64,000 bases of DNA from Rhodanobacteraceae bacterium (GTDB lineage Bacteria; Pseudomonadota; Gammaproteobacteria; Xanthomonadales; Rhodanobacteraceae), in contig JAACZU010000006.1 in the NCBI GenBank assembly GCA_009996615.1, forward strand, positions 1 through 64,000. Reading direction: 5' to 3'. The notes beneath the pieces were generated by a model, which was not told the DNA's origin, made no database searches, and saw only the letters and a list, made by a program, of their open reading frames with translations. Shown piece after piece: positions 1 to 17,614 of the stretch. Numbering within the stretch: position 1 is the stretch's first letter; the number at the start of each line of letters is the position of its first letter. The position numbers were made by a program, and so were the translations under genes.

Positions 1-66
1 GCCGGCGATCGCTGCCCGACGGCAGCGATCGAAAGCCCGGCTCACCCCCTTGAAGGGGAGGGCTTA
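1..66. repeat. Dispersed two-hairpin repeat, copy 1
   Basis: The segment contains an inverted repeat with 10-bp arms at 7-16 and 21-30 around a CGAC loop, followed by a second palindrome at 46-58 (CCCCTT/AAGGGG). A near-identical copy lies at 58201-58266. The two copies differ at paired positions of the first stem (T-A in one, G-C in the other), so pairing is kept. It lies just downstream of the fumarase stop codon. A transcript hairpin or a REP-type element are both possible. Confidence 0.75.
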
Positions 67-104
67 AAGCGCAAGCGCAAAAGCAGATCGCTGACTCGGC
101 CCGC

Positions 105-1622: not shown

Positions 1623-1708
1623 GGGCGAGTGCGGGAGCAGGGCGATAACCGCCTATTTTCGATGATGCGGGGCAGCATGGGAAATCGACGCCGGCTATGC
1701 CCGGTCCC

Positions 1709-2467
1709 TCACAGCGCGTCGTAACCGGTCTTCAGGATCAGCGCGCCGACCACCGCGATGAACACCCAGCGCACGAAGCCGGCGCCGTGGCGCAGCGCCA
1801 GCGCGGTGCCGGTCATGCTGCCGGCGACGTTGGCGAACGCGAGCATCAGCCCGACCTGCCACCAGATGTAGCCCTTGGCGCCGAACAGGACCAGCGCTGC
1901 GATGTTGGTCGCGACGTTCATCACCTTGGCCGAGGCTGAGGCGTGCAGGAAGTCGAAGCCGAGCACGCGCACGAACAGGAAGATGAAGAAGCTGCCGGTG
2001 CCGGGGCCGAAGAAGCCGTCGTACCAGCCGATGGCGAGGCCGATCAGGCAGGCCGCGACGACCTCGGCGCGACCGTACAGGCGCGGTGCGTGCGCGCGGC
2101 CGAGGTGCTTGTTCGCCAGCGTGTAGACGAACACCACCAGCAGCACGAACGGCAGCGCGCGGCGCAGCCAGCCCGGGTCGACCTGGGTCACGCTCCACGC
2201 GCCGGCGAACGAACCGGCCAGCGCGGTCGCCGCCGCCGGCAGCAACAAGGCCCAGCGCAACGACACGCGCCGCGCGAAGCGCCGCGCGGCGAACAGCGTG
2301 CCCCACACCGCGGCGAACTTGTTGGTGCCGAGCAGCGTCGCCGGCGCGGCGGACGGAAAGCTCGCGAACATCGCCGGCAGCAGCACCAGCCCGCCACCGC
2401 CGACGATCGCGTCGACCAGGCCGGCCAGGAAGGAGGCGGCGACGATGAGGACGAGGTCGATCGACAT
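1709..2467 (-). CDS. TSUP/TauE-SafE family membrane permease
   Basis: This 252-aa integral membrane protein has about eight hydrophobic segments. The family (sulfite exporter TauE/SafE, also called UPF0721/TSUP) moves small organic or sulfur-containing anions, but the substrate cannot be read from sequence. Two family-typical glycine-rich half-repeats are present, GLVDAIVGGGG near residue 18 and IGWYDGFFGPGTGSF near residue 145, which show the internal duplication. The ATG at 2467 gives a first membrane helix directly after the start. The frame stays open for a further 220 codons upstream, but that part is arginine-rich, not membrane-like, and antisense to the next gene, so it is not used. 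The stop codon (TGA) is at 1709-1711. Confidence 0.85.
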   Translation of the reverse strand: MSIDLVLIVAASFLAGLVDAIVGGGGLVLLPAMFASFPSAAPATLLGTNKFAAVWGTLFAARRFARRVSLRWALLLPAAATALAGSFAGAWSVTQVDPGWLRRALPFVLLVVFVYTLANKHLGRAHAPRLYGRAEVVAACLIGLAIGWYDGFFGPGTGSFFIFLFVRVLGFDFLHASASAKVMNVATNIAALVLFGAKGYIWWQVGLMLAFANVAGSMTGTALALRHGAGFVRWVFIAVVGALILKTGYDAL

Positions 2468-2596
2468 GCGGCAGGTCCGGAACGGGGCGCGCACTGTCGG
2501 CGATCGCGCGCCGGTGGCGTAGTGCCGGATGGCACGGCCGCTGCTCCTGCGCACGACACGGTAACCTGAGCGCTTTGCGTCCTGCCCATCCGCCCC

Positions 2597-3151
2597 ATGT
2601 CCATCGTCCTGACCGCGTTCGCCCGCACCCGCCTGTTTCCCAAAGACCCCCGCCGCAACACGATCCAGGACTGCACGCCCGAGCAGTTCGAGTGCCGCCT
2701 CAACGACGAGGCGCCGCTGAAGGTGCTCGACGGCTACGCGCCGTTCTGCAAGCTGCACGTGCACCGCAACTGGACCTCGACGCGCTGCCTGACCGTGCCG
2801 ATTACCGACGCCAATCGCCATCTGCTGCGCTCGGCCTACGAGGCGCGCACGAAGGAGGAATTGCCGGTGCTGGTGCGCTGGTTCGAGGGCGTCGAACCGC
2901 CGGTCGCCGGGTACTTCGTGGTGATCCTGTACAGCCGCGAGCAACTGGCGAAGGAGGGCGCGCCGATCGACGCCGACTGGGGCGTGGTCGGCTGCATCTA
3001 CACCGCCGAGCCGGAGGAAGTGCCGATGGCGCCGATCACGATGATGCGCAACGCGCTCGGCGTGGAAGAGGGCGGCTCGGGTGTGCCGCTCGATCGTGAG
3101 GCATATCGGCGCAGCGTCGAGTTCTGGGAGAATCACGCGAACTGGCGGTAG
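2597..3151 (+). CDS. DUF3228 family protein
   Basis: The 184-aa soluble protein begins MSIVLTAFARTRLFP and contains GNTIQDC-like (NTIQDCTPEQF), YFVVILYSREQL and TMMRNALGVEEGGSG segments typical of DUF3228. The function of the family is unknown. The intact C-terminus reads EFWENHANWR. Its last ~124 bases are duplicated with changes at 5838-5961, on the far side of the secreted-protein gene that follows. The gene runs toward ahcY, which is on the opposite strand; everything between the two 3' ends looks accessory. The start ATG at 2597 has no strong SD. Recognition of the family is by memory of its conserved segments. Confidence 0.8.
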   Translation: MSIVLTAFARTRLFPKDPRRNTIQDCTPEQFECRLNDEAPLKVLDGYAPFCKLHVHRNWTSTRCLTVPITDANRHLLRSAYEARTKEELPVLVRWFEGVEPPVAGYFVVILYSREQLAKEGAPIDADWGVVGCIYTAEPEEVPMAPITMMRNALGVEEGGSGVPLDREAYRRSVEFWENHANWR

Positions 3152-3278
3152 GCCGTGGTTGCGGGGCGCGCCTGTCCGCCCCGTGGTTGCGTGTGCCAGG
3201 CGCCGCCGGTCAATTCCGCCGCCGCTTCAGGCGTGCCGGCGAGCGGCGCCACGGCTCCAACGGGCAAGGGGAACCAGC

Positions 3279-5816
3279 ATGTCGTGTTTCGATGCGTGTC
3301 GCCGCTTGGGAGCGGCCATTGTTTCGTGTCTGTCGTCCGGTCGCGGTGGCCTGCTTGCGCTGGCCTTGGCGATCGCCGTGCCTGCACACGCCAACCCGGG
3401 GCAGCGCGTGCAGGTGATCCAGCACGGTGACTTCGCCATCATCGGCAATACGCTGGCGCAGGCCTGCGAGGCGGGCGTGCCGGCGCCTGTCGTGGGCACG
3501 CTGGGCGCCTGCGGCACCAACACGGCCGACTCGGCACCGGACGTGTTCTGGCGCGCCGATTCGCCGGCAGCGGGCCAGGCAGAGGCCAATACGTCGATCA
3601 CGGCCGCGCAGGCCCGATCGACCGCCGTGCTCAATCTGCCGCCGGGAGCGGTGGTCACGCATGCGTTTCTCTACTGGGCGGCCACCAACGTCTCCGGCGC
3701 CGACACGGGTGTCGTCCTGGATCGGCCGGGGCCGGTCGGCTTCACCACCGCGGTGACCGCGCAACAGTCATGGACGGGCGCGAATGATGCGTACGCCAGC
3801 ATGGCCGACATCACCGCCTTGGTGTCGGCGAACGGCAACGGTGCCTATCGCGTCTCCGACGTGTCCAGCGTCGAGCTTGCGAATCTCAACGGCAACAACC
3901 CTTTCGCCGCCTGGTGGATGGTCGTGTTGTACGAGCGTGCGGCGGACCCGTTGCGCAGCCTCAGCGTCTATGACGGTCTCGACACCGTCGCCAACGGGGC
4001 GCCCGCGTCGATCACGCTGTCCGGTTTCCTGGTGCTGACAGCCGGCTACGCGGCCAAGCTGGGCGTCGTCGCGCTCGAAGGCGATGCCACGATCACGGGT
4101 GACCAGCTCTTCTTCAACGGCGGTGCCGCGCTCAGCGACGCGCTGAACCCGGCCAGCAACTTCTTCAACGGCACGCGCGGCTATCTGGGAGCGGCGGTCT
4201 CCACGCCGGGCGACCTGCCGCAGCTCGAGGGGACGGCCGGCAGCATGTCCGGCATCGACATCGACGTGGTCGACATCACCAGCCGGATCGCCGGCGGACA
4301 GACCAGCGCGACCGTGCAGGCCTCGAGCACCGGCGACGTCTACTACCTGGCCAGCATGGTCGTCTCGATCACGACGTTTCGTCCGAGCTTCGGCAACAGC
4401 ACGATGACGGTATCGGACCTGAACGGCGGCGTGCCGATGCCGGGCGACACGCTGGAATACACGATCCAGGTGTCCAATGACGGCAACGAGAGCTCCATCG
4501 GCACCTATCTGGAGACCGTGCTGCCGGCAGGCATCACCTATGTGCCCGGATCGCTCATGGTTGCCAGCGGCGCGAATGCCGGCGCAAAGACCGATGCCCC
4601 CGGCGACGACCAGGCGGAATACCTCTTCGCCGAGCGCAAGATCGTCGCGCGGCTCGGTACGGGCGCCAACGGCACACAGGGCGGCGCTCTCGGCCTGGGG
4701 CAAAACACCACGATCCGCTTCCAGGCCACCCTCGACAGTGCCTGCACCTTGCATTCGGCGATCGCCAGCCAGGCGATGGTCCACGGCACCGGCCAGCTCA
4801 GCCAGGTCAGCATCGACATCCCCACCGACGGCGATCCTGCGACGGCCGGCCAGCAGCCGACGATCCTGCCGGTCGATGTCGATTGCCTCAGCGTGACACT
4901 GCCGCCATCGCCGGCGCATGGCTCGATCTCCAGCGACATCGGATTCGCCTGCGGCGCCGGCACGTGCAGCACGCCGATCGCGACGGGTACGACCGTGAAC
5001 TTGAGCGCGGACGCCGACGATGGCTATGTATTGGACACGTGGAGCGGCGACTGCGCCGATGCCGGAACGACGCCGAGTCTTGCCCTGACGCTCGACGCGC
5101 CGAAAACGTGCGGCGCGACCTTCATCGCCGCACCGCGCGCGATCCGTGTCAGTGTCAGCGGGCTGGTCGGCAGCGGTCTCGTGCTGCATCTGGACGACAG
5201 CGAAAATCTCTCCATCCCCGGCAATGGCACGTTCGCGTTCGCACGTGTCGTGCACGCCGGTGATCCGTACGGTGTCGTCGTTGCGTCCCAGCCGGCGGCG
5301 CCGGCGCAGGTCTGCACGTTCTCGCCGGACGTGCCGCCGAGCGGCACGGTTCCCGATGCGGACGTCGAGCTGGCCCTGGCCTGCACCACGTTGCAGCCGC
5401 ATCTGCGCCTCGCCGTCAGCGACAATCACGCCTACGCGCGCTACGGCATGATCGTGGGCTACGTCGTCACGTTGAACAACGACGGTCCCGGCGATGCCGG
5501 CGGCGTCAGCTTGGCGGCTGCCGCATCGTCGCAGCTCGACGAGCAGCAGATGACGTGGAGTTGCGTCGGCGCGGGTGCCGGCGCGACGTGTACGGCGGAA
5601 GGCAGCGGTCGATTGGTCGACAGCGGCATCGCGTTGCCGCCCGGGCGCAGCCTCACCTGGCTGGTGACGGCGCCGCTGCGGCAGGATGCGGCGGGCCAAA
5701 CGCTCGACTACACGGTCGATGCCACGGGCGCGGGCGGTGCAAGTGCGAGCGACACCAGCATCCTGGTTCTGCTGCGCACGGGCTTCGACGTGCCTGACGG
5801 CGACGGCGCGGAGTGA
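3279..5816 (+). CDS. Secreted DUF11-repeat protein with C-terminal GFD tag
   Basis: This 845-aa exported protein starts at the ATG at 3279, preceded by an AAGGGGAA ribosome-binding site. A signal peptide of about 39 residues ends AVPAHA. Residues ~350-480 form a DUF11-type beta-sandwich (DTLEYTIQVSNDGN, ETVLPAGITYVPGS). A cysteine-paired bacterial repeat of the G-Y-x-L-D-x-W-S-G-D-C type follows near 590, and a second DUF11-like domain lies near 720-820. Such domains build surface or extracellular beta-rich proteins; no enzyme motif is seen. The C-terminus has LLRTGFDV, a weak version of the tag shared by neighbouring secreted proteins. The gene is sandwiched between the intact 3' end of the DUF3228 gene and a damaged copy of that end, which suggests it was acquired. 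Confidence 0.8.
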   Translation: MSCFDACRRLGAAIVSCLSSGRGGLLALALAIAVPAHANPGQRVQVIQHGDFAIIGNTLAQACEAGVPAPVVGTLGACGTNTADSAPDVFWRADSPAAGQAEANTSITAAQARSTAVLNLPPGAVVTHAFLYWAATNVSGADTGVVLDRPGPVGFTTAVTAQQSWTGANDAYASMADITALVSANGNGAYRVSDVSSVELANLNGNNPFAAWWMVVLYERAADPLRSLSVYDGLDTVANGAPASITLSGFLVLTAGYAAKLGVVALEGDATITGDQLFFNGGAALSDALNPASNFFNGTRGYLGAAVSTPGDLPQLEGTAGSMSGIDIDVVDITSRIAGGQTSATVQASSTGDVYYLASMVVSITTFRPSFGNSTMTVSDLNGGVPMPGDTLEYTIQVSNDGNESSIGTYLETVLPAGITYVPGSLMVASGANAGAKTDAPGDDQAEYLFAERKIVARLGTGANGTQGGALGLGQNTTIRFQATLDSACTLHSAIASQAMVHGTGQLSQVSIDIPTDGDPATAGQQPTILPVDVDCLSVTLPPSPAHGSISSDIGFACGAGTCSTPIATGTTVNLSADADDGYVLDTWSGDCADAGTTPSLALTLDAPKTCGATFIAAPRAIRVSVSGLVGSGLVLHLDDSENLSIPGNGTFAFARVVHAGDPYGVVVASQPAAPAQVCTFSPDVPPSGTVPDADVELALACTTLQPHLRLAVSDNHAYARYGMIVGYVVTLNNDGPGDAGGVSLAAAASSQLDEQQMTWSCVGAGAGATCTAEGSGRLVDSGIALPPGRSLTWLVTAPLRQDAAGQTLDYTVDATGAGGASASDTSILVLLRTGFDVPDGDGAE

Positions 5817-5837
5817 TCCTGCAATCGGGAGCGCGCA

Positions 5838-5961
5838 CCGATGGTGCCGATCTCGATGATGCGCAACGCGCTCGGTGTGGAAGAGGGCGGCTCGGGTGTA
5901 CCGCTCGACCGCGAGGCGTACCGGCGCAGCGTCGAGTTCCGGGAGCGCAACGCGAACTGCG
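5838..5961 (+). pseudogene. Duplicated 3' fragment of the DUF3228 gene
   Basis: This stretch aligns to 3022-3147, the end of the intact DUF3228 gene, with about 13 differences over ~124 bases by eye. The translated fragment keeps MMRNALGVEEGGSGVPLDR but diverges at the last few residues (RERNANC instead of WENHANW) and has lost the stop codon. It is in the same orientation as the intact gene, so the secreted-protein gene is flanked by direct repeats. It has no start codon of its own in a useful position. Confidence 0.85.
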
Positions 5962-5970
5962 GCCTTGAGT

Positions 5971-5999
5971 TTGACCCGCGAGGTTTTCAAGCATAGGCT
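5971..5999 (+). promoter_or_regulatory. Candidate promoter of the vapBC-type pair
   Basis: TTGACC at 5971-5976 (5 of 6 to the -35 consensus) is followed after 17 bases by TAGGCT at 5994-5999 (3 of 6 to the -10 consensus). Transcription would start near 6006, which gives a short leader to the ATG at 6031 or an almost leaderless start at 6007. Confidence 0.35.
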
Positions 6000-6030
6000 C
6001 AGGCATATGCCAAGACCATCAGAGACGCCC

Positions 6031-6270
6031 ATGCTGCCCGAGCGCCATGTCCGCCTGTTCCGCAACGGTCGCAACCAGGCCGTGCGGATTCCGCGCGAGT
6101 TCGAGTTGCCGGGCGACGAGGCCATCATGCGCCAGGAAGGCGAGCGACTCGTCATCGAGCCGCTCAAGCCCAAGCGCAATCTGCTGGAAATCCTCGCCAC
6201 GCTGGAGCCGATCGAGGAGGAGTTTCCGGAGATCGACGATCCGCCGGTGTCCGACGAGGACATCTTCTGA
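6031..6270 (+). CDS. vapB: VapB-type antitoxin (AbrB/SpoVT fold)
   Basis: The 79-aa protein has the swapped-hairpin AbrB DNA-binding fold signature early (VRLFRNGRNQAVRIPREFELPG) and an acidic C-terminal tail (EEEFPEIDDPPVSDEDIF) that would occupy the toxin active site. Such antitoxins bind their own promoter and neutralise the PIN-domain partner encoded next. The stop TGA and the next ATG share one base (TGATG at 6268-6272), so the pair should be translationally coupled. The ATG at 6007 would add MPRPSETP; the ATG at 6031 fits the family N-terminus better. It sits right after the DUF3228 tail copy. Confidence 0.85.
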   Translation: MLPERHVRLFRNGRNQAVRIPREFELPGDEAIMRQEGERLVIEPLKPKRNLLEILATLEPIEEEFPEIDDPPVSDEDIF

Positions 6271-6698
6271 TGCCGGACCTGCGCTACCTGCTGGACACCA
6301 ACATCGTCTCCGCGGTGGTCAAGGCGCCCGATGGCCCGCTCGCGCGGCGTCTGGCCGAGCTGCCGCGCGAGGCCTTCGGCATCAGCCTCGTGGTGGCCGC
6401 CGAGTTGCGCTACGGCGTGCTGCGCAAGGGCTCGACCACGCTCGCGCGACAGTTGGAGGCGGTGCTCGGAGGCATCGACATCGTTCCGCTGGAAGAGCCG
6501 GTGGACCACCACTACGGCGAAATCCGCAACGCGCTGGCACGGATTGGACAACCGATCGGCCAGAACGATCTTTTCATCGCCGCCCACGCCCGAGCGCTCG
6601 GCGTCGTGCTGGTGACCGCCAATGTCCGCGAGTTCGCGCGCGTGCCAGGCCTGAAGGTCGAGAACTGGCTGGCTGCTGCCGATGACAGCGAGGTCTGA
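6270..6698 (+). CDS. vapC: VapC-type PIN-domain ribonuclease toxin
   Basis: This 142-aa PIN-domain protein is the likely toxin of the pair. The acidic residues that hold Mg2+ in PIN nucleases are in place: Asp9 (LLDTN), Glu45 (AAELRYG) and Asp100 (QNDLFIAAHA). The usual fourth acidic position is Asn in LVTANVREF, as in many active VapC proteins. Family members cut tRNA or rRNA and stop translation; the target here is unknown. The start overlaps the antitoxin stop by one base. The length is normal for the family, and no damage is visible. Confidence 0.88.
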   Translation: MPDLRYLLDTNIVSAVVKAPDGPLARRLAELPREAFGISLVVAAELRYGVLRKGSTTLARQLEAVLGGIDIVPLEEPVDHHYGEIRNALARIGQPIGQNDLFIAAHARALGVVLVTANVREFARVPGLKVENWLAAADDSEV

Positions 6699-6940
6699 TG
6701 AGGTCCCGGGTTTCCCAAAGCTCGTCATTCGGGCGAAGGCCGGAATACAGCTTTGGCCCGCAAGGGCCGGATGACGCCGCAAGACGGCCCAGGCTCGCAG
6801 CGTTGCGCAGCCGCCGACCGGCCGGCTTCGAAAGCCGGCTTTCATGTCGAGCCGGGCTTTGAAAGACTCCGCACACATTTTTTCAATGCTGGACCTACCC
6901 GGAAAGGGACCGCGATGAAACATCCTGACGAGGGCAGCGC
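6699..6940. repeat. Intergenic palindromes before the type III RM genes
   Basis: No gene is seen. Bases 6722-6775 hold an inverted-repeat element of the CGTCATTC...GGATGACG type also found near 28205 and 35091. A second arm pair (GGCTTCGAAAGCCGGCTTTC) lies at 6826-6845. The AT-richer stretch near 6880-6890 (TTTTTTCAATG) could be part of the mod promoter, but no clear -35/-10 pair was found. Confidence 0.45.
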
Positions 6941-8548
6941 ATGCCTGAATTGACCTGGCTCGGCGAGCGCAAGGCGCGGCTGGCTGCGCGGCAGGTGCCG
7001 TACCGGCTGCTCGAAGCGGTGAGCGAAGTCGGCGATGCGGCAGCCGACAACCTGCTCATCCAGGGCGACAACCTCGCTGCGCTGAAGAGCCTGCTGCCGC
7101 TCTACGCCGGCCGCGTGAAGTGCGTCTTCATCGACCCGCCGTACAACACCAGGAGCGCGTTCGAGCACTACGACGACAACCTCGAGCACAGCCAGTGGCT
7201 GTCGATGATGTACCCGCGCCTGGTGCTGCTGCGCGACCTGCTGGCCGAGGACGGCAGCATCTGGGTGACCATCGACGACAACGAGGCGCATTACCTCAAG
7301 GTCATCATGGATGAGGTGTTTGAGCGATCGAATTTTGTAGCTGACATTGCGTGGCAAAAGGTGTTCGCAAAGAAGAATAAGGCGCTCATTTCAGGAAGCC
7401 ACGATCATCTGCTGGTAGCTGCCAAAAATATTCAAAAGTGGAAACGCAATCTATTGCCGCGTTCCGGTGCTGCTGCGAGAGCCTTCAAGAACCCGGATAA
7501 CGATCCTCGCGGAAACTGGCAAAGCGTTTCCTACTCTGTTCAATCCGAGGATAGCGATCGCCGTCAAGCCTACCGGTATGCGATCCGACTCCCTTCCGGT
7601 CGAGAGGTCATGCCACCGCAAGGCCGACATTGGAACGGGTTGGAGGATCGAACAGCGCTCTTGAGTGCTGACCGTCGACTGTGGTTCGGAAAAGATGGCG
7701 ACAGTCCCCCACGACTTAAAGTGTTCCTGAGCGAGGTCCAGGACGGTATCGTTCCGGATACTTGGTGGTCCCACGATGACGCTGGTTCCAACCAGGATGC
7801 CAAGAAAGAGATTCTTGCCTTGTTTCCAGACACGGAGCCGTTTGGAACACCTAAGCCAGAAGCTTTGCTCAATCGTGTTCTTGAGGTCGCCACCAACCCC
7901 GGCGACCTCGTCCTCGACAGCTTCCTCGGCTCCGGCACCACCGCCGCGGTCGCGCACAAGATGGGCCGGCGCTGGATCGGCATCGAGATGGGCGAGCATG
8001 CGGCGACGCACTGCCTGCCGCGCCTGACCAAGGTCGTCGAAGGCGAGCAGGGCGGCATCTCGCAGGCGGTCGGCTGGCAGGGCGGCGGCGGTTTCCGCTT
8101 CATGCGCCTCGGTGATCCGGTGTTCCTCGACGACGGTCGTATCGCGCCGTCGGTGCGCTTCGCGCCGCTGGCGGCGTACTTGTGGTTTCTCGAAACGCAT
8201 GTGCCGTGGGCGGGTACGTCTCATCACGGCCCCTCACCCCGGCCCTCTCCCCGGCGGGGAGAGGGGGAAAAGCCGACATCGGCGGGGGAGGGAGAAAAGC
8301 TGTCGCCGTTGCTCGGCATCCACGGCGACACCGCGATCGTGCTGCTCTACAACGGCATCCTCGGCGACAAGCGCCCGCAGGGCGGCAACGTGCTGACGCA
8401 TGCGGTGTGGGACGAGGTGCGCGCACTGGCGCCGGACCACGCGGGACCGTGGCTGGTCTACGGCGAGGCGAGCCGGCTGCAGCCGGCGACGTTGAAGAAG
8501 CACGGCATCGTGTTCCGCCAGATTCCCTACGACATCGGAGCGCGCTGA
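6941..8548 (+). CDS. mod: Type III RM adenine methyltransferase (Mod)
   Basis: The 535-aa protein is a beta-class DNA N6-adenine methyltransferase: motif IV DPPYN (Asp65-Asn69) comes before the SAM-binding motif I (DSFLGSGTT, Asp326-Thr334). The target-recognition region between them, roughly residues 126-305 (7316-7855), is far poorer in G+C than the flanks; two lines I counted (7321-7440) have 53 G/C in 120 bases. Residues ~427-453 are encoded by a palindromic repeat (arms 8243-8252 and 8256-8265) inserted in frame, giving a Pro/Arg/Gly/Glu-rich stretch absent from the usual family layout. With the downstream helicase-nuclease it forms a type III system. The stop TGA overlaps the next ATG by one base. 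The ATG at 6941 gives the normal N-terminus. Confidence 0.92.
   Translation: MPELTWLGERKARLAARQVPYRLLEAVSEVGDAAADNLLIQGDNLAALKSLLPLYAGRVKCVFIDPPYNTRSAFEHYDDNLEHSQWLSMMYPRLVLLRDLLAEDGSIWVTIDDNEAHYLKVIMDEVFERSNFVADIAWQKVFAKKNKALISGSHDHLLVAAKNIQKWKRNLLPRSGAAARAFKNPDNDPRGNWQSVSYSVQSEDSDRRQAYRYAIRLPSGREVMPPQGRHWNGLEDRTALLSADRRLWFGKDGDSPPRLKVFLSEVQDGIVPDTWWSHDDAGSNQDAKKEILALFPDTEPFGTPKPEALLNRVLEVATNPGDLVLDSFLGSGTTAAVAHKMGRRWIGIEMGEHAATHCLPRLTKVVEGEQGGISQAVGWQGGGGFRFMRLGDPVFLDDGRIAPSVRFAPLAAYLWFLETHVPWAGTSHHGPSPRPSPRRGEGEKPTSAGEGEKLSPLLGIHGDTAIVLLYNGILGDKRPQGGNVLTHAVWDEVRALAPDHAGPWLVYGEASRLQPATLKKHGIVFRQIPYDIGAR
8225..8300. repeat. Palindromic repeat inside the mod coding sequence
   Basis: A perfect 10-bp inverted repeat (CCCTCTCCCC, loop GGC, GGGGAGAGGG) sits at 8243-8265 inside a CCCTCACCCC...GGGGAGGGAG context. 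This resembles intergenic REP-like repeats common in Xanthomonadales and elsewhere in this window (for example 38192-38212). Here it is read through in frame as part of the methyltransferase. Confidence 0.75.
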
Positions 8549-11214
8549 TGGCATTGCAGCTCAAGCGATACCAGCAGGACGCGCTCGATGCGCTGGCCGC
8601 GTTCCTCGCCGGCGCGCGCGGTTGCGACACGCAGGCGCGGATGCAGGCCGCGTTCGAGGCGGCGCGGAGGCAGGCGATGGGCGAGAACGCGCCGCTCGCC
8701 GCGTACCGTCCGTTCACCGCCGAGCAGCCCGCGATTCCGGTCGCCTGCATCCGCATTCCCACCGGCGGCGGCAAGACCCTGATGGCCGCGCACGCGATCG
8801 ACATCGCCGCGCGCGACTACGTCGGCACGCGCGCGCCGATCGCGCTGTGGCTGGTGCCGAGCAACACGATCCGCATGCAGACGCTGGAGGCGCTGAAGAC
8901 GCCGGGCCATCCGTATCGGCAGGCGCTGCTGGCGCACTGGCCGGATGACGCGCTGACGGTGCTCGACATCGCCGACTGCCGGCAGATCCGCGCGCACGAC
9001 ATCGGCCGGCGCGCGATCGTCGTCGTCGGCACGGTGCAGACGTTGCGCGTGGAGAACACCGCCGCGCGCGAGGTGTACGCGTATCACGAGGACTTCGCGC
9101 CGCATTTTGCGACCGCGCCGGACGCGCCGTTCTTCGAGCGCGTGAGCGAGCGCGATCTCGAGGCGCAGCCGTACCTGTCGCGCGGCGATCTCGGCCGGAT
9201 CAAGGCGAGCTTTGCGAACCTCTTGGCCTGGCATCGGCCGATCGTCATCATGGACGAGGCGCACAACGCGCAGTCGAAGCTGTCGCTGGCCGTGCTGGAG
9301 CGCATCCGTCCGGCCTGCGTGGTCGAGTGGACGGCGACGCCGCTGCCGGACCAGAACGTGTTGTATGCGGTGTCCGCGCAGGAGTTGAAGGCGGCGGACA
9401 TGATCAAGCTGCCGATCGTGCTGGCGCCGCATCCGAACTGGCAGGAAGCGGTGCGCGACGCGGTGCTGACGCGCGAGAAACTCGCGGCGGAAGCGGCGTC
9501 CGAGTCGGAATACCTGCGCCCGATCGTGCTGCTGCAGGCCGACCAGAAAAGCGGCGCGGCGACGGTCGACGTTGTGAAGGCGTATCTGGTCGATCAATTG
9601 CACGTCGACGCGAATCGCATCGCGGTCGCCACCGGTGCCCAGCGCGAACTCGACGGCGTGGACCTGTTCCGGCGCGACTGCCCGATCGACTTCGTGATCA
9701 CGGTCGAGGCGCTGAAGGAAGGCTGGGATTGTTCGTTCGCCTACGTGTTCTGCACCGTGCAGAACATCCGCTCGGCGAAGGACATGGAGCAGTTGCTCGG
9801 CCGCGTGCTGCGCATGCCGTATGCAAAGCGGCGGGCATCGGACAAGCTTAATCGCGCCTACGCGCAGGTGTGCGGCGCACGTACCGCCGAGGTCGCCAAC
9901 CAACTCGCCGACCGGCTCATCAGCATGGGCTTCGAGCGCCTGGAGGCGGCGCAGGCGGTGCAGCCGACGCTGGGCGACGACCTGTTTGCGCTGCGTCCGG
10001 TCGAGCCGGCGAAGGTGGAAACCGAGTTCGAGGCGGCTCCGGAGCTTGCACGCGCGCTGGCCGCGGTCGCGCCCGCGCAGGTGCGCGTGGAGCCGGTCGA
10101 AGGCGGCGCGGCGCGCGTGACAGTGACCGGCGCAGTGGATGCGGCGACCGTCGACGCGATCGTCGCCGCCAGTCCGAAGCGCGAGCGCGAGGCGCTGCGG
10201 GAGCAGTTGCAGCGGCACGAGGCGCGCGTGCTCGCCGCGGCCGCGCCGAGCGAGCGCGGCGAAGTGTTCGCGCCGATCCCGCAACTTGTGCTGCCGGTGC
10301 AGGGCGAGCTACGCCTGTACGAGCCTGAGCTGCTGGCGGAGCTGGCCGACTATTCGCTGGCGGGACTGCCGGCGGACTTGCCCGGATTCAAGCGCGCCGA
10401 ATCGCTGCGCCCTTACTTGATCGACATCGAACGCGGCCGGCTCGGCGTGCGCGAGGACAGCGCGCAATACGACCTCGGGCTCGACGGCGGCGGCGTGGTT
10501 CGTCGCGAAGACGTGATCCGCGCGCTCGATGCGCGCCTGCGCAGCGCGGCGGTGTTGCAGCCGGACATGATCGCGTGGCTGGGGCGTCTGCTCGACGGTC
10601 TGCAGCGCGAAGGGTTCGAGCCGGCGTATCTGCTGCGCCATCTCAACGACCTGGCCGAGGCTGCTGCGGCGCGCCTGCGTGAATTGCTGGCTGCGCAGCG
10701 CGACAAGGCGTTCCAGCAGTCGCTGCTGCCCGGCGACCGCGGCATCCGGCTGGATGGCGTCACCGGTTTCCATTTCGACCCGCAGCGCTATCCGGCGCGC
10801 TGGCTGTACGCGGGCCGCTGGCGCTTCGGCAAGCACTACTACCCGCTGCCGGGCGAGTTGAAGCCGGACATCGATGCCGAGGAAACCGCCTGCGCGATCG
10901 CGATCGACGGCCTGCCGCAGGTGCGGCGCTGGGTGCGCAACCTGGAGCGGCAGCCGGATGCGGCGTTCTGGCTGCCGACGTCGAGCGATCGCTTCTACCC
11001 GGATTTCGTCGCGGAATTGACCGATGGCCGGTTGTTCGTCGTCGAGTACAAGGGCAGCGACCGCGTGAGCAACGACGATTCGCGCGAAAAGGACACGATC
11101 GGCAAGGTCTGGGCAGCGGCCAGCGGCCGGCGCTGCCTGTTCCTGATGGCGACCGATGCGAAGACGGCAGGTAGGCCGGTGTCGGTGCAGTTGCGCGAGG
11201 CGGTTGGGTCATGA
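8548..11214 (+). CDS. res: Type III restriction helicase-nuclease (Res)
   Basis: This 888-aa subunit cuts DNA in an ATP-dependent way together with Mod. The helicase core shows Walker A GGGKT at residues 73-77, a DEAH box at 236-239 and motif III-like TATP near 262. The C-terminal nuclease has the PD-(D/E)xK pattern: Pro818-Asp819, Glu833-Tyr-Lys835. Family members translocate or switch along DNA and cut when two sites meet. The start ATG at 8548 overlaps the mod stop (TGATG), so the pair is coupled. The reading frame is complete and G+C-rich like the host genes. Confidence 0.93.
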   Translation: MALQLKRYQQDALDALAAFLAGARGCDTQARMQAAFEAARRQAMGENAPLAAYRPFTAEQPAIPVACIRIPTGGGKTLMAAHAIDIAARDYVGTRAPIALWLVPSNTIRMQTLEALKTPGHPYRQALLAHWPDDALTVLDIADCRQIRAHDIGRRAIVVVGTVQTLRVENTAAREVYAYHEDFAPHFATAPDAPFFERVSERDLEAQPYLSRGDLGRIKASFANLLAWHRPIVIMDEAHNAQSKLSLAVLERIRPACVVEWTATPLPDQNVLYAVSAQELKAADMIKLPIVLAPHPNWQEAVRDAVLTREKLAAEAASESEYLRPIVLLQADQKSGAATVDVVKAYLVDQLHVDANRIAVATGAQRELDGVDLFRRDCPIDFVITVEALKEGWDCSFAYVFCTVQNIRSAKDMEQLLGRVLRMPYAKRRASDKLNRAYAQVCGARTAEVANQLADRLISMGFERLEAAQAVQPTLGDDLFALRPVEPAKVETEFEAAPELARALAAVAPAQVRVEPVEGGAARVTVTGAVDAATVDAIVAASPKREREALREQLQRHEARVLAAAAPSERGEVFAPIPQLVLPVQGELRLYEPELLAELADYSLAGLPADLPGFKRAESLRPYLIDIERGRLGVREDSAQYDLGLDGGGVVRREDVIRALDARLRSAAVLQPDMIAWLGRLLDGLQREGFEPAYLLRHLNDLAEAAAARLRELLAAQRDKAFQQSLLPGDRGIRLDGVTGFHFDPQRYPARWLYAGRWRFGKHYYPLPGELKPDIDAEETACAIAIDGLPQVRRWVRNLERQPDAAFWLPTSSDRFYPDFVAELTDGRLFVVEYKGSDRVSNDDSREKDTIGKVWAAASGRRCLFLMATDAKTAGRPVSVQLREAVGS

Positions 11215-11275
11215 GTCTCGAACCGTGAGACGCGGGTGCAGATCATTGCAACCGATCTGATGCGGGGGGCGGGCG

Positions 11276-12367
11276 ATGGATGCTTTGAAGACAGCTGATC
11301 GGATCGTGCATCCGGCATTTGGGCTGGGCAGTGTCGTGAGTGACGAGGCCAAGGGAATGGTTGAGGTCGTCTTCGATGAGGGCGGAAACAAGAAGTTGCT
11401 GGCGCTCAAATATGCCCATCTGCGCAAGGTGGACGTGGACGAAGAGCTGGAGATCGTTCAGTCCCAGGCGGCCAGTCTGAAGGAGACATTTTCGTTCGAA
11501 ACCGAAGACAATCATTCGCCGGGTTCGCATTGGTCGCCGTTCTACGAAGACCCGAAGGAGGAAGTAGTCAAGCGCTTGCCGGAATGGTTGCAAGGCGCCG
11601 GCGTCGCGTTGGGGCTGTCCAGCTTCGAAACGTATCGTGCGCCGCCCTTGCCCGGCGATTGGGCGAAAGGGTTCAAGCTGCGTTGGCCAGAAACGGAGGA
11701 TTCGATCCATTTCGTGCTCAAGCAAGGCGACTCGGCAAACATGCTGACGACCTGGTTCCCGGTGATCGCTCGCGGTACGCAGGAGTCACTGGAGATCCGC
11801 AAGGTCCATGTCTGGGAAAGCGGTGTTGAGGCGCAAATCGAGGCGTCGATTGGCGCCGCTTCGATCCGATTCTTTGATACCGATTTCGTCATCAATGCCG
11901 GCTGGTATCGTGCCGGAGCGAAAGCGGAGTTCATTCTCGCTGGTCTGGCTTATCAGTGCGAGCCGGCCAACGAGCCGGACATCGTCGTGGACGACCATTG
12001 GCCGGTGACGCAGTTTTTGCGCCAAAGCGCGATCGAGCGTGGCGAGAATCCCGGCGAGGCACCTCGAACGATCAGCTACAAGGGCGCGGCCATTCTGCTG
12101 CCGATCGACGAGTGGGATCGGGACGACTACCAGTTCCGGGGCACAATCCTCGAAGTGAGACCCTACGTGATGCTTGACGTGGAGGCGTGGCTGTTGACTG
12201 TTTGCGTCATGCGTTGCCTCGACGATAATGACCGCGAACTCCACTTGAACATTCTTGTTACTCGGCGAGTATGGTCCCAACTGGTGGGGCCGGCTGTCGG
12301 GGACGATGTGCGCGGGGCACTATGGTTGCAGGGGCGTCTCTGGTCGCCACCTTCGAGATCTTCGTGA
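11276..12367 (+). CDS. Unrecognised protein with N-terminal Tudor-like domain
   Basis: I do not recognise this 363-aa protein as a whole. Residues ~8-52 (RIVHPAFGLGSVV, VEVVFDEGG, ALKYAHLRKV) look like the Tudor/KOW-type beta-barrel found at the C-terminus of UvrD/PcrA helicases and in CarD-like proteins, which contacts RNA polymerase or nucleic acid. The middle part is Trp-rich and unassigned. The last ~90 residues (FRGTILEVRPYVMLDVEAW, GALWLQGRLW) could form an OB-like barrel. No enzyme motif, signal peptide or membrane helix is visible. It follows res by 61 bases on the same strand and has lower G+C than res (32 of 60 in 11341-11400). It may be an accessory to the RM system or an independent defence gene; both are inference. 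Confidence 0.7.
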   Translation: MDALKTADRIVHPAFGLGSVVSDEAKGMVEVVFDEGGNKKLLALKYAHLRKVDVDEELEIVQSQAASLKETFSFETEDNHSPGSHWSPFYEDPKEEVVKRLPEWLQGAGVALGLSSFETYRAPPLPGDWAKGFKLRWPETEDSIHFVLKQGDSANMLTTWFPVIARGTQESLEIRKVHVWESGVEAQIEASIGAASIRFFDTDFVINAGWYRAGAKAEFILAGLAYQCEPANEPDIVVDDHWPVTQFLRQSAIERGENPGEAPRTISYKGAAILLPIDEWDRDDYQFRGTILEVRPYVMLDVEAWLLTVCVMRCLDDNDRELHLNILVTRRVWSQLVGPAVGDDVRGALWLQGRLWSPPSRSS

Positions 12368-12394
12368 GCGGGGGGGCTGTAGCGACACCAAACA

Positions 12395-12420
12395 AAACGG
12401 GCGCCTTTCGGCGCCCGCTC
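12395..12420 (-). terminator. ahcY-type terminator, copy A
   Basis: A perfect 8-bp stem (CGGGCGCC 12398-12405, loop TTTC, GGCGCCCG 12410-12417) is followed on the minus strand by a T-run (AAAA on the plus strand at 12394-12397). It is the same hairpin as the one after intact ahcY (15816-15835) and lies downstream of the truncated ahcY tail. Confidence 0.75.
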
Positions 12421-12447
12421 CGTGTCCAGCATTGACCAACCCGCCGA

Positions 12448-12640
12448 TCAGTAGCGGCAGTGATCCGGCTTGTACGGCCCTTCCACCGGCACGCCGAGGT
12501 ACGCGGCCTGTTCGGCGGTCAGCGTGGTCAGCTTCACGCCGATCTTGTCCAGGTGCAGGCGGGCGACGTCCTCGTCGAGCTTCTTCGGCAGGATGTAGAC
12601 CTTCGCCTCGTGCGCGTCCTTGTTCGCCCGCGTTTCTGTC
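12448..12640 (-). pseudogene. Truncated 3' copy of ahcY (copy A)
   Basis: This fragment encodes the last ~60 residues of S-adenosylhomocysteine hydrolase ([17 protein letters not shown] ... [10 protein letters not shown]) and ends at a proper stop codon. Compared with intact ahcY (15864-16045) it shows about 14 differences over ~180 bases by eye, including Tyr-to-Cys in the last residues. Homology stops abruptly near 12635, upstream of which the sequence is unrelated. It cannot make an enzyme. It lies in the same orientation as intact ahcY and keeps the terminator. Confidence 0.92.
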
Positions 12641-12942
12641 GACCTGCCGCTTGATCTGGTCATGACCAGGTCTCGTGGGCGCGGGCCGGTCGACGCGTTT
12701 CACCCAAAGTGTGCTCGGCTTCGCGGTCCTGTGGTGACGCGGCTCACGCGGTGACCGCGACGGCGTGGCCGGACCGCCGCTAGGGGCACGCGCTATCGTG
12801 CCGCGGCCGCTGCGTGTGCCGGGAATCGGTGTACCGGCCGTGCCGGATGGGCGGCGTGACGCTCGCTTGCCGTCCAGTGCCGAGCCGCGAAGCGGTTGCG
12901 TCGCCGGCCAACCAGGAAACAAGGACAACCAGGAGGACTTGC

Positions 12943-14370
12943 ATGATCCGATACGCCCTGCCATCCCTTTTCAGTGCGTTCTTCGCGCTGGTGGCGCATG
13001 ACGCCGCCGCAGCCGATTTCGTCGTGACCACGCTCGCCGACAGCGGGGCAGGCAGCTTGCGCCAGGCCATCGCCGGCGCCAACGCCACACCCGGGGCCGA
13101 CCGGGTCCTGATCCAGACGCCGGGTACCATCGTTCTGACCAGCGGCACCGTGCCGATCTCCGACTCGGTCGAGATCATCGGCTGCGCAGGCTGTGCGGTG
13201 CAGGCGCAGGGCGGCACTCGCGTGTTCACGATCGCCGGCGATCCGAACGAGCCGCAGGCGAAGGTCGTGGCCCTGCGCAACCTGCGCCTGTCGGCCGCTG
13301 CCAGTGCCGGCGACGGCGGCGTGATCCGCGCCGAGTACGCGCGGCTGGCGCTCGACAACGTCGAGGTCCGCGATGGCAACGCCGAGGGGTGGGGCGGCGC
13401 GCTCTACGCCGACGCCTGCGAGGTCGACGTCGTCGGGTCGCGCTTCATCGACAACCTGGCCGGCGGCAACGGCGGCGCCATCGCGTCGAACACCGGCGTG
13501 CTGCGCATCTCGCGCTCGACCTTCGCCGGCAACCGTTCCGAGGTCCGCGGTGGCGCGGTCTGGGCGAACTGGTCGCAGGATTCGAGCGTGGTCGTGCTGG
13601 ACAGCACCTACAGCGACAACAGCGCTGCGTTCGATGGCGGCGCGATCCATGCGCACGTCGCCGAGCTGCGCATCAGCGGCAGCACGTTCGACGCCAATTC
13701 GGCCGAGTACTGGGCCGGCGGCGGCGCACTGCACATCGGCGAGGACGGCGTCGGACCGATGGAGATCGACAACAGCACGTTCATCGGCAACCAGGCGCTG
13801 TACGCGGGCGCGCAGGGCTCGGCGATCCTGCTCAACAGCGGACGGCTGCGCGCACGCCACATCACCGTCACCGGCAACAAGATCGGCGACAATTCCGATA
13901 GCGGGGAGGACGGCGGCGCGATCACGCTGGGGGCCGACTTCGAGGCCCGTCTCGAGTTGCAGAACTCGATCGTCGCCGGCAACGTGCAGGCTGCTGGCTC
14001 GCCCAGCGGCCTGGCCCGCTCGATCAATCCGTCCGCTCCGAATCTCGTCGACGCGCGCTACAACCTGATCGACACGATACCGGCGCCGGGCACGATCAAC
14101 GGTGTGGACGTCGGCAATCAGGTCGGCGTGCAGGCCCTGCTCGGTGCATTCGCCAACCACGGTGGCCCCACGCACACGGTGGCGTTGCTGCCCGGCAGTC
14201 CCGCCTGCGACGCCGCCGAGCCGGTGACCGGGCTGACGACCGACCAGCGCGGCGCTGGCTTCTCGCGGGCATGGGGCCCGCCGGATATCGGTGCGTGGGA
14301 GCACCGCGGCGACACGATCTTCTACGGCGACTTCGAACTGCACACCACGCCGAACCGCTGCATGCGCTGA
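12943..14370 (+). CDS. Secreted right-handed beta-helix protein with GDFE tag
   Basis: The 475-aa exported protein starts at the ATG at 12943, six bases after a perfect AGGAGG (12931-12936). The signal peptide ends near residue 24 (DAAAA/DFVV). The mature N-terminus, FVVTTLADSGAGSLRQAI, is the hallmark of the CSLREA/choice-of-anchor family, and the body has repeated short strands such as GSRFIDNLAGGNGGAI, STFAGNRSEVRGGAV and STFIGNQALYAG that build a parallel beta-helix. The C-terminus has DTIFYGDFE, the tag shared by neighbouring secreted proteins. It sits between two copies of the ahcY 3' end and reads opposite to them. It is probably surface-associated; no catalytic residues can be named. 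Confidence 0.85.
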   Translation: MIRYALPSLFSAFFALVAHDAAAADFVVTTLADSGAGSLRQAIAGANATPGADRVLIQTPGTIVLTSGTVPISDSVEIIGCAGCAVQAQGGTRVFTIAGDPNEPQAKVVALRNLRLSAAASAGDGGVIRAEYARLALDNVEVRDGNAEGWGGALYADACEVDVVGSRFIDNLAGGNGGAIASNTGVLRISRSTFAGNRSEVRGGAVWANWSQDSSVVVLDSTYSDNSAAFDGGAIHAHVAELRISGSTFDANSAEYWAGGGALHIGEDGVGPMEIDNSTFIGNQALYAGAQGSAILLNSGRLRARHITVTGNKIGDNSDSGEDGGAITLGADFEARLELQNSIVAGNVQAAGSPSGLARSINPSAPNLVDARYNLIDTIPAPGTINGVDVGNQVGVQALLGAFANHGGPTHTVALLPGSPACDAAEPVTGLTTDQRGAGFSRAWGPPDIGAWEHRGDTIFYGDFELHTTPNRCMR

Positions 14371-14441
14371 CGGCCAAGAGGAAGGTTGACGGCCTGCAGC
14401 CGTCGCCCGGCGGGATCCTGCCCGCTGTCGATACACCACGC

Positions 14442-14532
14442 AAACGGGCGCCTCGCGGCGCCCGTTCTGCGTCTGGCCCTGACCGATCCGGGCACCAGTA
14501 GCGGCAGTGTTCCGGCGTGTGCGGTCCTTCCG
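14442..14532 (-). pseudogene. Degenerate ahcY 3' end plus terminator (copy B)
   Basis: The hairpin CGGGCGCC/GGCGCCCG (14445-14452 and 14457-14464, loop TCGC) and the adjoining CAGTAGCGGCAGTG...CGGTCCTTCC segment match copy A (12398-12485) and the intact ahcY end. Only about 25 codons of ahcY sequence remain recognisable. The hairpin could now end transcription of the beta-helix gene on the plus strand. Confidence 0.75.
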
Positions 14533-14576
14533 CATGATCGGCCAACCGCTCGAAGCCTGCCCGGCGGATCGCCGTT

Positions 14577-15665
14577 TCAGTAACCGTCGAATCCGTACCT
14601 GAAGATGCGGTCGAACGTGACGGTCGCGGTTCCCGGCGCACTGGTGATGCCGGTGCCTTCGCCCGTCAGGACGGCCAGCGGAAAAGCGTTGCCGAACGCG
14701 TATCTCGAGTGCACGACGACGCGGCCGCGGGCGTCCGGATTGTTGTTGGCGATGGAGATGACCAGGCGTCCGCTGTCCTGGTCGATGCCGAGGCCGCTCG
14801 GATATTCGCCCGTCGCCATCACGAGCGAGGCGAACAGGCCGGAGATGACGCGCAATGGCGAGGCGTTGCCGTTGGCATCGGCGGCAAAGGCGATGACGCT
14901 CGCGGAATGGGTCGCGTCCCCGTCGGCCGGACCGACCAGTGCGAACAGCGTCTGGGTTTCCTCGTCGACGGCCACGCGCACGTTGCTGCGGCCGCCCAGC
15001 TGCGTGTCGGGTCCTTCGATCACGCGCAGCGGCGTCGCGGCCGCGCCATCGGCCAGGCGCGAGAAGACGAGGATGCGATTCGGGTAGCCGGCGGCGGAAT
15101 CGTCCTTGTAGTCGCCGACGACGATTTCACCTCGCCGGCGATTGAGCGCAAGGCTGGCGGGATTGTTGAGCTGGCTCGTCGACACGTTGTTGCCGCCCCA
15201 GGGAATCTGGCGGATCGGGCTGATGCCGGAGCCGGCGGCGAGACGCGGCCATGTGCAGATGCTGTGGAGGCTGGCAATGGCGACCATCTCGTCGTGCGCG
15301 CGGTCGACCCGCACCGCACGCACCTGTCCGAGGGGCGGCGAGTTCATCGTGCGCAGCGGCCCGGGGTAGCCGTTGGCGAGTGCTTCGTAGACGTGGATTG
15401 CCTGGCCCCAGAAGTCGGCCACGTAGATGACGTTCTCGCCGGGCTCGTATTCGATGGAACTGGCCGTGACGATCGGGTTGAAGGTTCCCGGGTTGATCGA
15501 GCGCAGTGGCGCGACGTTGCCGTTGGCGCCGTTGGCGAACACGTTGATGATGCCGGAGGGGTTGTCGCTTGGAGTGGCGTTGCCGACGATGATCTCGGCG
15601 CGCGTGAGCGGGGCGCTCAGGCACAGCATCGACAGGAGGCAAGCGGCGAACGGACTCTTGCGCAT
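14577..15665 (-). CDS. Secreted propeller-like repeat protein with GFDG tag
   Basis: The 362-aa protein starts at the ATG at 15665, eight bases after GAGGG; an in-frame GTG lies five codons upstream. The signal peptide runs to about residue 24 (SAPLTRA/EIIVG). The mature part has recurrent blades around the phrase N-G-x-x-x-P-L-R-x-I (NGNVAPLRSI, GAAATPLRVI, NGNASPLRVI), as in NHL-like beta-propellers. It ends FDRIFRYGFDGY, a clear case of the shared C-terminal tag. It lies between ahcY copy B and intact ahcY, in the same orientation as ahcY. No enzymatic motif was seen; a binding or structural surface role is likely. Confidence 0.8.
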   Translation of the reverse strand: MRKSPFAACLLSMLCLSAPLTRAEIIVGNATPSDNPSGIINVFANGANGNVAPLRSINPGTFNPIVTASSIEYEPGENVIYVADFWGQAIHVYEALANGYPGPLRTMNSPPLGQVRAVRVDRAHDEMVAIASLHSICTWPRLAAGSGISPIRQIPWGGNNVSTSQLNNPASLALNRRRGEIVVGDYKDDSAAGYPNRILVFSRLADGAAATPLRVIEGPDTQLGGRSNVRVAVDEETQTLFALVGPADGDATHSASVIAFAADANGNASPLRVISGLFASLVMATGEYPSGLGIDQDSGRLVISIANNNPDARGRVVVHSRYAFGNAFPLAVLTGEGTGITSAPGTATVTFDRIFRYGFDGY

Positions 15666-15810
15666 GGTCAGGACCCTCACGGATGGTTCTACCCCTTACG
15701 CGAAAGCGTAGCCGAAACCCCAAGCCGTCCGGGCACGGCAGCATGCCCACGGCCTCGCCCGAGCGCCCGTCAGGGGACCAGGGCTGAATCCGCCCTCGAT
15801 CCGGCCATGC

Positions 15811-15836
15811 AAAACGGGCGCCTCTCGGCGCCCGTC
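15811..15836 (-). terminator. Rho-independent terminator of ahcY
   Basis: Stem CGGGCGCC (15816-15823), loop TCTC, GGCGCCCG (15828-15835), with a T-run on the minus strand (AAAA on plus at 15812-15815). It lies 28 bases past the ahcY stop. Two further copies of this hairpin mark the duplicated ahcY ends. Confidence 0.85.
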
Positions 15837-15863
15837 TTGTTTGACGCATTGCCGATCAAGCGA

Positions 15864-17309
<1,446 letters not shown>

Positions 17310-17381
17310 CGAATTGTTCCGGTTCGAGACCGGCACTGGCCGGCGCGCTGATGCGCCCGGGCAGGTCCGGTCGGGTGGTCC

Positions 17382-17466
17382 GGGCGCCGTTGCTGCACGG
17401 TCGCCTGCCGAGCCTGGGTTTGACCGCGGATGATGCGGGCCAACGTGCAGCGCCCCTCGGCAGGGA
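17382..17466 (-). ncRNA. SAH riboswitch in the ahcY leader
   Basis: On the minus strand the leader reads CTGCCGAGGGGCGCTGCAC (17466 downward), then CCCAGGCTCGGCAG, then GCAACGGCGCCC near 17382. The outer stem pairs CTGCCGAG with CTCGGCAG, and GGGCGC can pair with GCGCCC as the pseudoknot. These are the conserved blocks of the SAH riboswitch, known to raise ahcY expression when SAH builds up. It lies 72 bases upstream of the ahcY start and just downstream of a -10-like TATACT. Confidence 0.88.
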
Positions 17467-17473
17467 GAAGGCA

Positions 17474-17479
17474 AGTATA
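17474..17479 (-). promoter_or_regulatory. -10 element of the ahcY promoter
   Basis: TATACT on the minus strand is a 5-of-6 match to the -10 consensus and lies a few bases upstream of the riboswitch, as expected. A good -35 hexamer was not found at the usual spacing. Confidence 0.5.
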
Positions 17480-17614
17480 TCCCTTCATGGCGATACAGCG
17501 ATGCATTGTCGCCGGGTGCGCCGGCCGTCGGGGCTGGCGGTGCCGCAAAGGCCCTGGGTGGAGTCGGCGCGGAAGTGCGTATCAGGTACTGCAAACCCAT
17601 CCCAGGAGCTTGCC

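Follow-up and report, generated by a model that had tools for sequence, protein, structure and literature searches.

The first 64,000 nucleotides of contig JAACZU010000006.1 of a Rhodanobacteraceae bacterium (NCBI GenBank assembly GCA_009996615.1, forward strand; hereafter the window) contain an accessory block that lies between the facing 3' ends of two core genes, a DUF3228 gene and ahcY. The block carries secreted-protein genes, a toxin-antitoxin (TA) pair and a type III restriction-modification (RM) system, and it also carries three truncated copies of the 3' ends of the two core genes, which we call tails and which we read as probable scars of DNA addition. The core genes, the tails and the genes that the tails bracket are as follows (E, expect value; bp, base pairs; G, L and C numbers are our handles for genomes, loci and contigs):

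2597-3151, plus strand: DUF3228 gene, left core gene of the hotspot (Pfam PF11539, E 2e-64)
3279-5816, plus strand: secreted protein A, with DUF3344, DUF11 and an InlB-like repeat (Pfam, NCBIfam DUF11-type repeat, gene call)
5838-5959, plus strand: truncated copy of the DUF3228 3' end, equivalent to 3023-3144 (89% over 122 bp, E 2e-40)
12393-12629, minus strand: tail 1, a partial ahcY 3' end with terminator, equivalent to 15810-16045 (88%, E 6e-80)
12943-14370, plus strand: secreted protein B, beta-helix, choice-of-anchor Q (Pfam, NCBIfam)
14422-14531, minus strand: tail 2, second ahcY-end copy, short and decayed, with terminator (74% to ahcY, E 6e-10)
14532-14576, plus strand: remnant of a presumed hutG 3' end (aligns with the last codons of hutG in G011)
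14577-15665, minus strand: secreted protein C, NHL type, C-terminus GFDGY (homologues in the hut loci of G011 and G012)
15810-15863, minus strand: 3' flank of the intact ahcY, which includes a GC-rich terminator-like hairpin (alignment; 3' limit of the homology shared with the tails)
15864-17309, minus strand: ahcY, right core gene of the hotspot (DNA-level conservation in relatives, gene call)

The start of ahcY was set by comparison with relatives, the gene call itself beginning at 17336. We take this gene to be ahcY from its sequence, and the names aroB, thyA, hutG, hutU, MazEF and BrnTA used below are likewise our assumptions from sequence.

Gene tails in a variable interval

The tails were found by blastn of positions 1-18500 of the window against the window. 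They are genuine copies, far beyond chance, and all three keep the orientation of the parent gene. Tail 1 is 237 bp long and is made of 182 bp of coding sequence, an intergenic stretch and the terminator-like hairpin; tail 2, with ~110 bp of which only ~37 bp are coding, is 77% identical to tail 1 (E 6e-16). An earlier reading of the window, made from the sequence only, had described these copies with their places and orientations, and self-blastn bears it out, its coordinates being right within ~20 bp; the cargo that it listed for the block agrees with Pfam, NCBIfam and the gene calls.

We examined 137 loci, 63 of which contain both the DUF3228 end and the ahcY end. The two genes are convergent in 63 of these 63, and the gap between them ranges from 80 bp to 16.8 kilobases (kb). 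In five loci (two of Pseudoxanthomonas and one each of a Luteimonas, a Lysobacter and G223) it is only 80-190 bp, the near-contact that the sequence-only reading had looked for in relatives, and in other loci other genes fill the interval, so that the flanking core genes are conserved and the content is variable. The interval is an insertion hotspot without an integrase. A genome scan for the phage integrase family PF00589 gave seven matches, all on other contigs and none on that of the window, which agrees with the earlier remark that no integrase is seen here, and no integrase or transposase was found in the interval by Pfam on the genes of the block, the only way in which transposases and other recombinases were sought.

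Tails with other cargo are also found at the ahcY boundary in other species, as had been anticipated. G005 has a second ahcY end beside a MazEF-like pair (see below), G225 has two decayed ahcY tails and G008 has one weak ahcY copy, while a BrnTA-like pair in G231 is flanked by 56-bp repeats of the terminator that include no coding sequence. The ahcY repeats measure 237, ~110, 588, ~100-130 and 56 bp, and a fixed attachment core is absent. The tails differ in length but keep their 3' limit close to the end of the gene or its terminator, as fits recombination limited by homology and not an attachment core. Integrases often use the 3' ends of genes and leave a displaced end behind, so the tails could be regarded as the relic of an integrative element with attachment sites at gene 3' ends that has lost its integrase. 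Yet a phage integrase is absent from the contig, the repeats of 56 to 588 bp share no fixed core and each event in the window, G005 and G231 brought one or two cargo genes; we consider such a relic highly improbable. Another option is that shared, GC-rich terminators were the sites of recombination and that the tails have their coding part only incidentally. The aligned ahcY copies do include the terminator-like hairpin, a similar hairpin is found elsewhere in the genome (contig C3), and the repeats of G231 hold the terminator alone. However, tails extend up to 534 bp into coding sequence, which makes up most of the tails of DUF3228, aroB and thyA, and this option appears very unlikely to us. 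In G023 a gene that we take to be PhnB-like has a copy of its tail 7 kb downstream, inside the same DUF3228-ahcY interval (L009 4310-4789, 11629-11829).

An ahcY tail in G005 and its absence from the colinear G004

Over 16.8 kb and on through ahcY, G005 is colinear with G004 apart from an extra 1126 bp in G005, with the MazEF-like pair and a second, 588-bp ahcY end. For part of the MazEF stretch the nearest available match, 80% over 390 bp, is in the same interval of G227, downstream of another gene. Between the G005 tail and the intact ahcY, the 5' part differs at 35 of 406 sites, and the 3' end together with the flank at 5 of 181 (Fisher p 0.008); in the 5' part the intact gene of G005 is 95% identical to G004 and the tail 91%. 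Counted against G004, the tail has 22 codon changes of its own, 17 of them synonymous and 5 not (for neutral decay, P 7e-7); two are synonymous swaps of more than one base. The tail and the intact gene show 39 base differences, for 32 of which both states occur in the genes of other species, and six are private to the copy. Because the changes are mostly synonymous, we suggest that this tail diverged in a working gene and is not a decayed local duplicate; simple local tandem duplication, which the sequence-only reading had set against its own proposal, is contradicted in G005 by the codon pattern, though not by the tree test given below. A single crossover near the 3' end, with gene conversion added (see below), is the favoured explanation of the G005 pattern.

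One explanation that has to be weighed here is insertion with long target duplication, in which widely spaced breaks duplicate the resident gene end and the copy then decays. The same visible pattern is described for Helicobacter pylori in PMC1643837, and tail 1 of the window is compatible with such an event. The G005 tail is difficult to reconcile with it, as its specific changes are mainly synonymous, with the multi-base swaps among them, and as most of its differences from the intact gene are of states that both exist in other species, only a few being private to the copy. We hold this explanation to be quite unlikely.

How frequent are the tails

In a systematic test of 134 relatives' loci, a copy counted as an ahcY tail if its total length was 60 bp or more and its coding part 30 bp or more. 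Such a tail was given by 2 of the 81 relatives' ahcY 3' ends, and one of 98 DUF3228 3' ends had a weak copy (L052, 94 bp, 71%), which stops 69 bp before the gene end. The 3' ends of 1482 other genes gave a list of 14 matches, of which five reach to within 75 bp of the gene end; one of these five was set aside as a tandem paralogue. With the window added, ahcY (3/82) exceeds the other genes (4/1482) with a Fisher p of 0.004, or 0.035 without the window; these p values are a guide only, since the loci were chosen around the site, some genomes occur twice and the G005 tail is among the 81 ends.

In the window's own genome we surveyed 864 kb, that is, 40 stretches of 20 kb and the window, and the filter left 16 matches with the 3' end of a gene and 11 with a 5' end. 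Five of the 16 were accepted by judgement (the three of the window, one of aroB and one of thyA) and none of the 11; the others, again by judgement, were put down to paralogy, to a tandem repeat or to matches that were short or internal. The absence of 5' copies could also reflect selection against broken promoters. The aroB tail (165 bp, 81%) lies beside secreted-protein genes and the thyA tail is 201 bp long at 76%. There is a local excess, with three tails in 13 kb versus two in the remaining 800 kb. The integration route through the 3' ends of core genes, which the sequence-only reading had suggested for ahcY and DUF3228, is partly supported, and with the aroB and thyA tails in the same genome it extends beyond these two genes; it is a route known in kind.

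The thyA tail copy is found beyond folA (contig C4, 215206-217782), with a 324-amino-acid, probably secreted protein encoded between thyA and folA and a presumably PIN-like open frame on the far side; folA, like thyA, is named here by assumption. The aroB regions of 13 relatives gave no clean empty site, as one contig stops at aroB and the other 12 differ downstream. A gene on contig C3 that we take to be SnoaL-like at first looked to have a tail, and closer alignment left an internal, low-quality match that includes no gene end. In 400 kb of G209 three 3' matches were listed, all within a cluster of three similar small genes and for that reason counted as no gene tail, and six 5' matches, three of which had copies outside called genes. 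A further 400 kb, from G013, yielded a single 3' match, falling 80 bp short of the end of its gene, and two 5' matches.

Origin and order of the inserts

In G011 and G012 a homologue of secreted gene C lies between hutG and hutU, with 77% and 76% DNA identity over nearly the whole insert, and in G012 a second related gene separates it from hutG. The homology to G011 passes secreted gene C into the last hutG codons, to 14535, and the remnant in the window is frameshifted. As this hutG-end remnant directly adjoins tail 2, the insert of secreted gene C came from a hut locus, and with a hut origin either one incoming molecule carried both a hut fragment and an ahcY end, or the insertion took two steps. 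The hut locus of G004 (L106 5320-11616) has in order a gene tail, a secreted-protein gene, the head of hutU fused to a second copy of the tail, a region related to the secreted-protein gene (secreted gene C), and then hutU; gene calls in this locus are noisy and a neighbouring gene is partly masked. This layout looks like the one expected if a circularised segment had integrated by one crossover.

The remaining genes of the block sit between the DUF3228 tail and tail 1:

6031-6698, plus strand: VapB/VapC-type TA pair (PIN domain over the Pfam cut-off)
6941-11214, plus strand: type III RM system, mod 6941-8548 and res 8548-11214 (PF01555, PF04851)
11276-12367, plus strand: gene of unknown function, 363 amino acids (no Pfam match at E 0.01)

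In G009 DUF3228 is directly followed by a VapBC pair, and the end of a type III RM system is ~0.8 kb away from ahcY. Both are related to those of the window, the RM homologues at 78-86% DNA identity, and tail copies were not found in the DUF3228-ahcY interval of G009. In the window, VapBC follows the DUF3228 tail as it follows the intact DUF3228 in G009, and for this reason the DUF3228 tail would mark the older junction. Secreted gene A lies between DUF3228 and this tail, and because VapBC abuts the tail, secreted gene A and one gene end would have been inserted there. The ahcY tails bracket secreted genes B and C in like manner. The sequence-only reading had the tails dividing the whole block, and while their positions stand, they bracket only the three secreted-protein genes; the TA and RM genes require no tail-forming event, as G009 holds relatives of both without tails.

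Proposed mechanism

A mechanism that fits these data is an additive, homology-based integration at gene ends, in which each tail is the scar of one event and the single-crossover form is favoured; we give this reading a probability of roughly 0.58. The incoming DNA would link a stretch of the 3' end of ahcY or DUF3228 to a single cargo gene or a few of them, and recombination with the resident gene end would yield an intact gene followed by the cargo and then by one truncated tail, which adjoins the old neighbour. Strain-to-strain homology ends close to the end of the gene or a little beyond its terminator, and the 3' limit of the tail would fall there, the 5' limit being an illegitimate joint and hence variable. 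The sequence-only reading, which is partly supported, had a circular molecule integrate by a single crossover. Additive homologous integration is upheld with the single crossover favoured, and it is the circle that is less secure: we infer a circular or circularised molecule, not a linear one, just as we infer the single crossover, the entry by transformation and the donors.

Several points weigh against this mechanism. G004 may have lost the insert rather than never having gained it. In the last window of the alignment the two G005 copies differ at 0 of 46 sites, versus 10 from G004, and the near-identity of this last part and flank requires that gene conversion be added to the crossover. The approximately unbiased (AU) test does not reject the G005 tail and intact gene as sisters (p 0.47), a result that counts in favour of long target duplication, and in the best tree the tail groups, weakly supported, next to the pair formed by G005 and G004. 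The scar is rare among the relatives' ahcY ends. The joining of two loci in the case of secreted gene C is unexplained by a simple circle. ComEC was found in the genome, but the same search was positive in 10 of 14 control genomes, including Escherichia coli. In the window itself the length of the DUF3228 tail and of tail 2 is insufficient to judge their origin, and tail 1 has no synonymous excess, its copy-specific codon changes being one synonymous and four not versus G010, four and four versus G007, and two and four versus G013, which fits a decaying resident copy.

The specific codon changes of the intact ahcY end are seven synonymous and no other versus G010 and versus G013, and three and none versus G007. 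This pattern of tail 1 and the intact end is also expected from a single crossover near the 5' end of the tail, or from a one-sided integration of linear DNA. In the latter, a homologous crossover in the gene end would be combined with an illegitimate joint, across sister chromatids, and the tail would be the resident copy and the intact 3' end the donor's. Tail 1 behaves as such a resident decaying copy beside an intact end with only synonymous specific changes, two of the joints have no obvious repeat by eye, and mechanisms of this kind (homology-facilitated illegitimate recombination; merodiploidy in pneumococcus) are documented in PMC3240628 and PMC3784515. In G005, on the other hand, the copy that has diverged from the sister species is the tail, contrary to the prediction, and we regard one-sided linear integration as unlikely in general. 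The window's own short tails may nevertheless have come from a linear molecule with one illegitimate joint or from target duplication.

Other features of the cargo

The matches of the TA pair to the VapB and VapC models fell below cut-offs. The protein of the 11276-12367 gene has one homologue besides itself among 233 family genomes (G009, on another contig, 41%), and its residues 4-51 weakly match the C-terminal end of a DNA helicase II model (E 0.034). A search for the donor genomes of secreted genes A and B gave partial similarities and no donor. Apart from the self-match, the 300 bp that separate tail 1 from secreted gene B matched 5 of the 233 genomes, over no more than 27-38 bp. Many probably secreted proteins of this genome end in F-x-x-G-F-D/E (14577-15665 and 17690-18937 in the window, others on contigs C1, C3 and C4). 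A loose form of the pattern gave 15 candidates, some of them false, among 726 called genes in the 864 kb, and 0 of 324 in 400 kb of G209; it occurs in the cargo adjoining two of the five accepted tails (secreted gene C and the aroB site). No NCBIfam model covers this end in the secreted proteins that were tried, and it may be an undescribed sorting tag. An 80-bp repeat (90%) is shared by 1-78, at the very start of the contig, and 58201-58280, and is perhaps a dispersed intergenic repeat at an assembly break.

Relation to known systems

Insertions with long target duplication, frequently of RM genes, are known from H. pylori (Nobusato et al., 2000, Gene 259:99, as cited in PMC1643837, PMC4978471 and PMC3154945). 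As there, the insert is flanked by a long direct repeat of the target, a counterpart strain lacks the insert and RM genes are among the cargo. The counterpart here is a syntenic relative for G005, namely G004, and for the window's own inserts only more distant relatives. What differs is that the repeat is a conserved gene end, that the bracketed cargo is mostly of secreted-protein and TA genes and that the G005 copy is not simply a duplicate of its target. The class of scar is thus already known, as "insertion with long target duplication", and the locus is a variant within known kinds.

Many bacterial hotspots have no recognisable mobile element and show more recombination at the flanking core genes, and gene entry has been argued from such rates (PMC5635113). 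Conserved flanking genes, changing cargo and the lack of an integrase are common to both; the model of that paper is a double crossover, whereas the tail copies here record additive events. Transformation-induced merodiploids (Johnston et al., 2013; PMC3784515) likewise add DNA with duplication, and homology-facilitated illegitimate recombination (PMC3240628) likewise pairs one homologous with one illegitimate joint. These are laboratory events, while here the scars are found in sequenced genomes. In Arabidopsis, transposed genes with flanking repeats of the target site were attributed to the recombination of a circular molecule (Woodhouse et al., 2010; PMC2869330), again an inserted gene flanked by target-site repeats; that case is eukaryotic and within one genome, and ours is probably between bacterial lineages. 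Among the papers listed in a search on horizontal gene transfer in Dokdonella, no title or abstract opening gives an account of this locus.

Gene-tail scars are physical records of single additions, which give their direction, their order and, in long tails, a hint of the place of the crossover, and they make the question of how single genes enter hotspots testable gene by gene. A tentative and rather unlikely extension is that in the relatives of Dokdonella and Rudaea small circularised chromosomal segments, each with a secreted-protein or TA gene and the end of a housekeeping gene, dock by a single crossover at the 3' ends of ahcY, DUF3228, aroB and thyA. If this is true, such segments would be a route of single-gene mobility that needs only host recombination and leaves countable scars.

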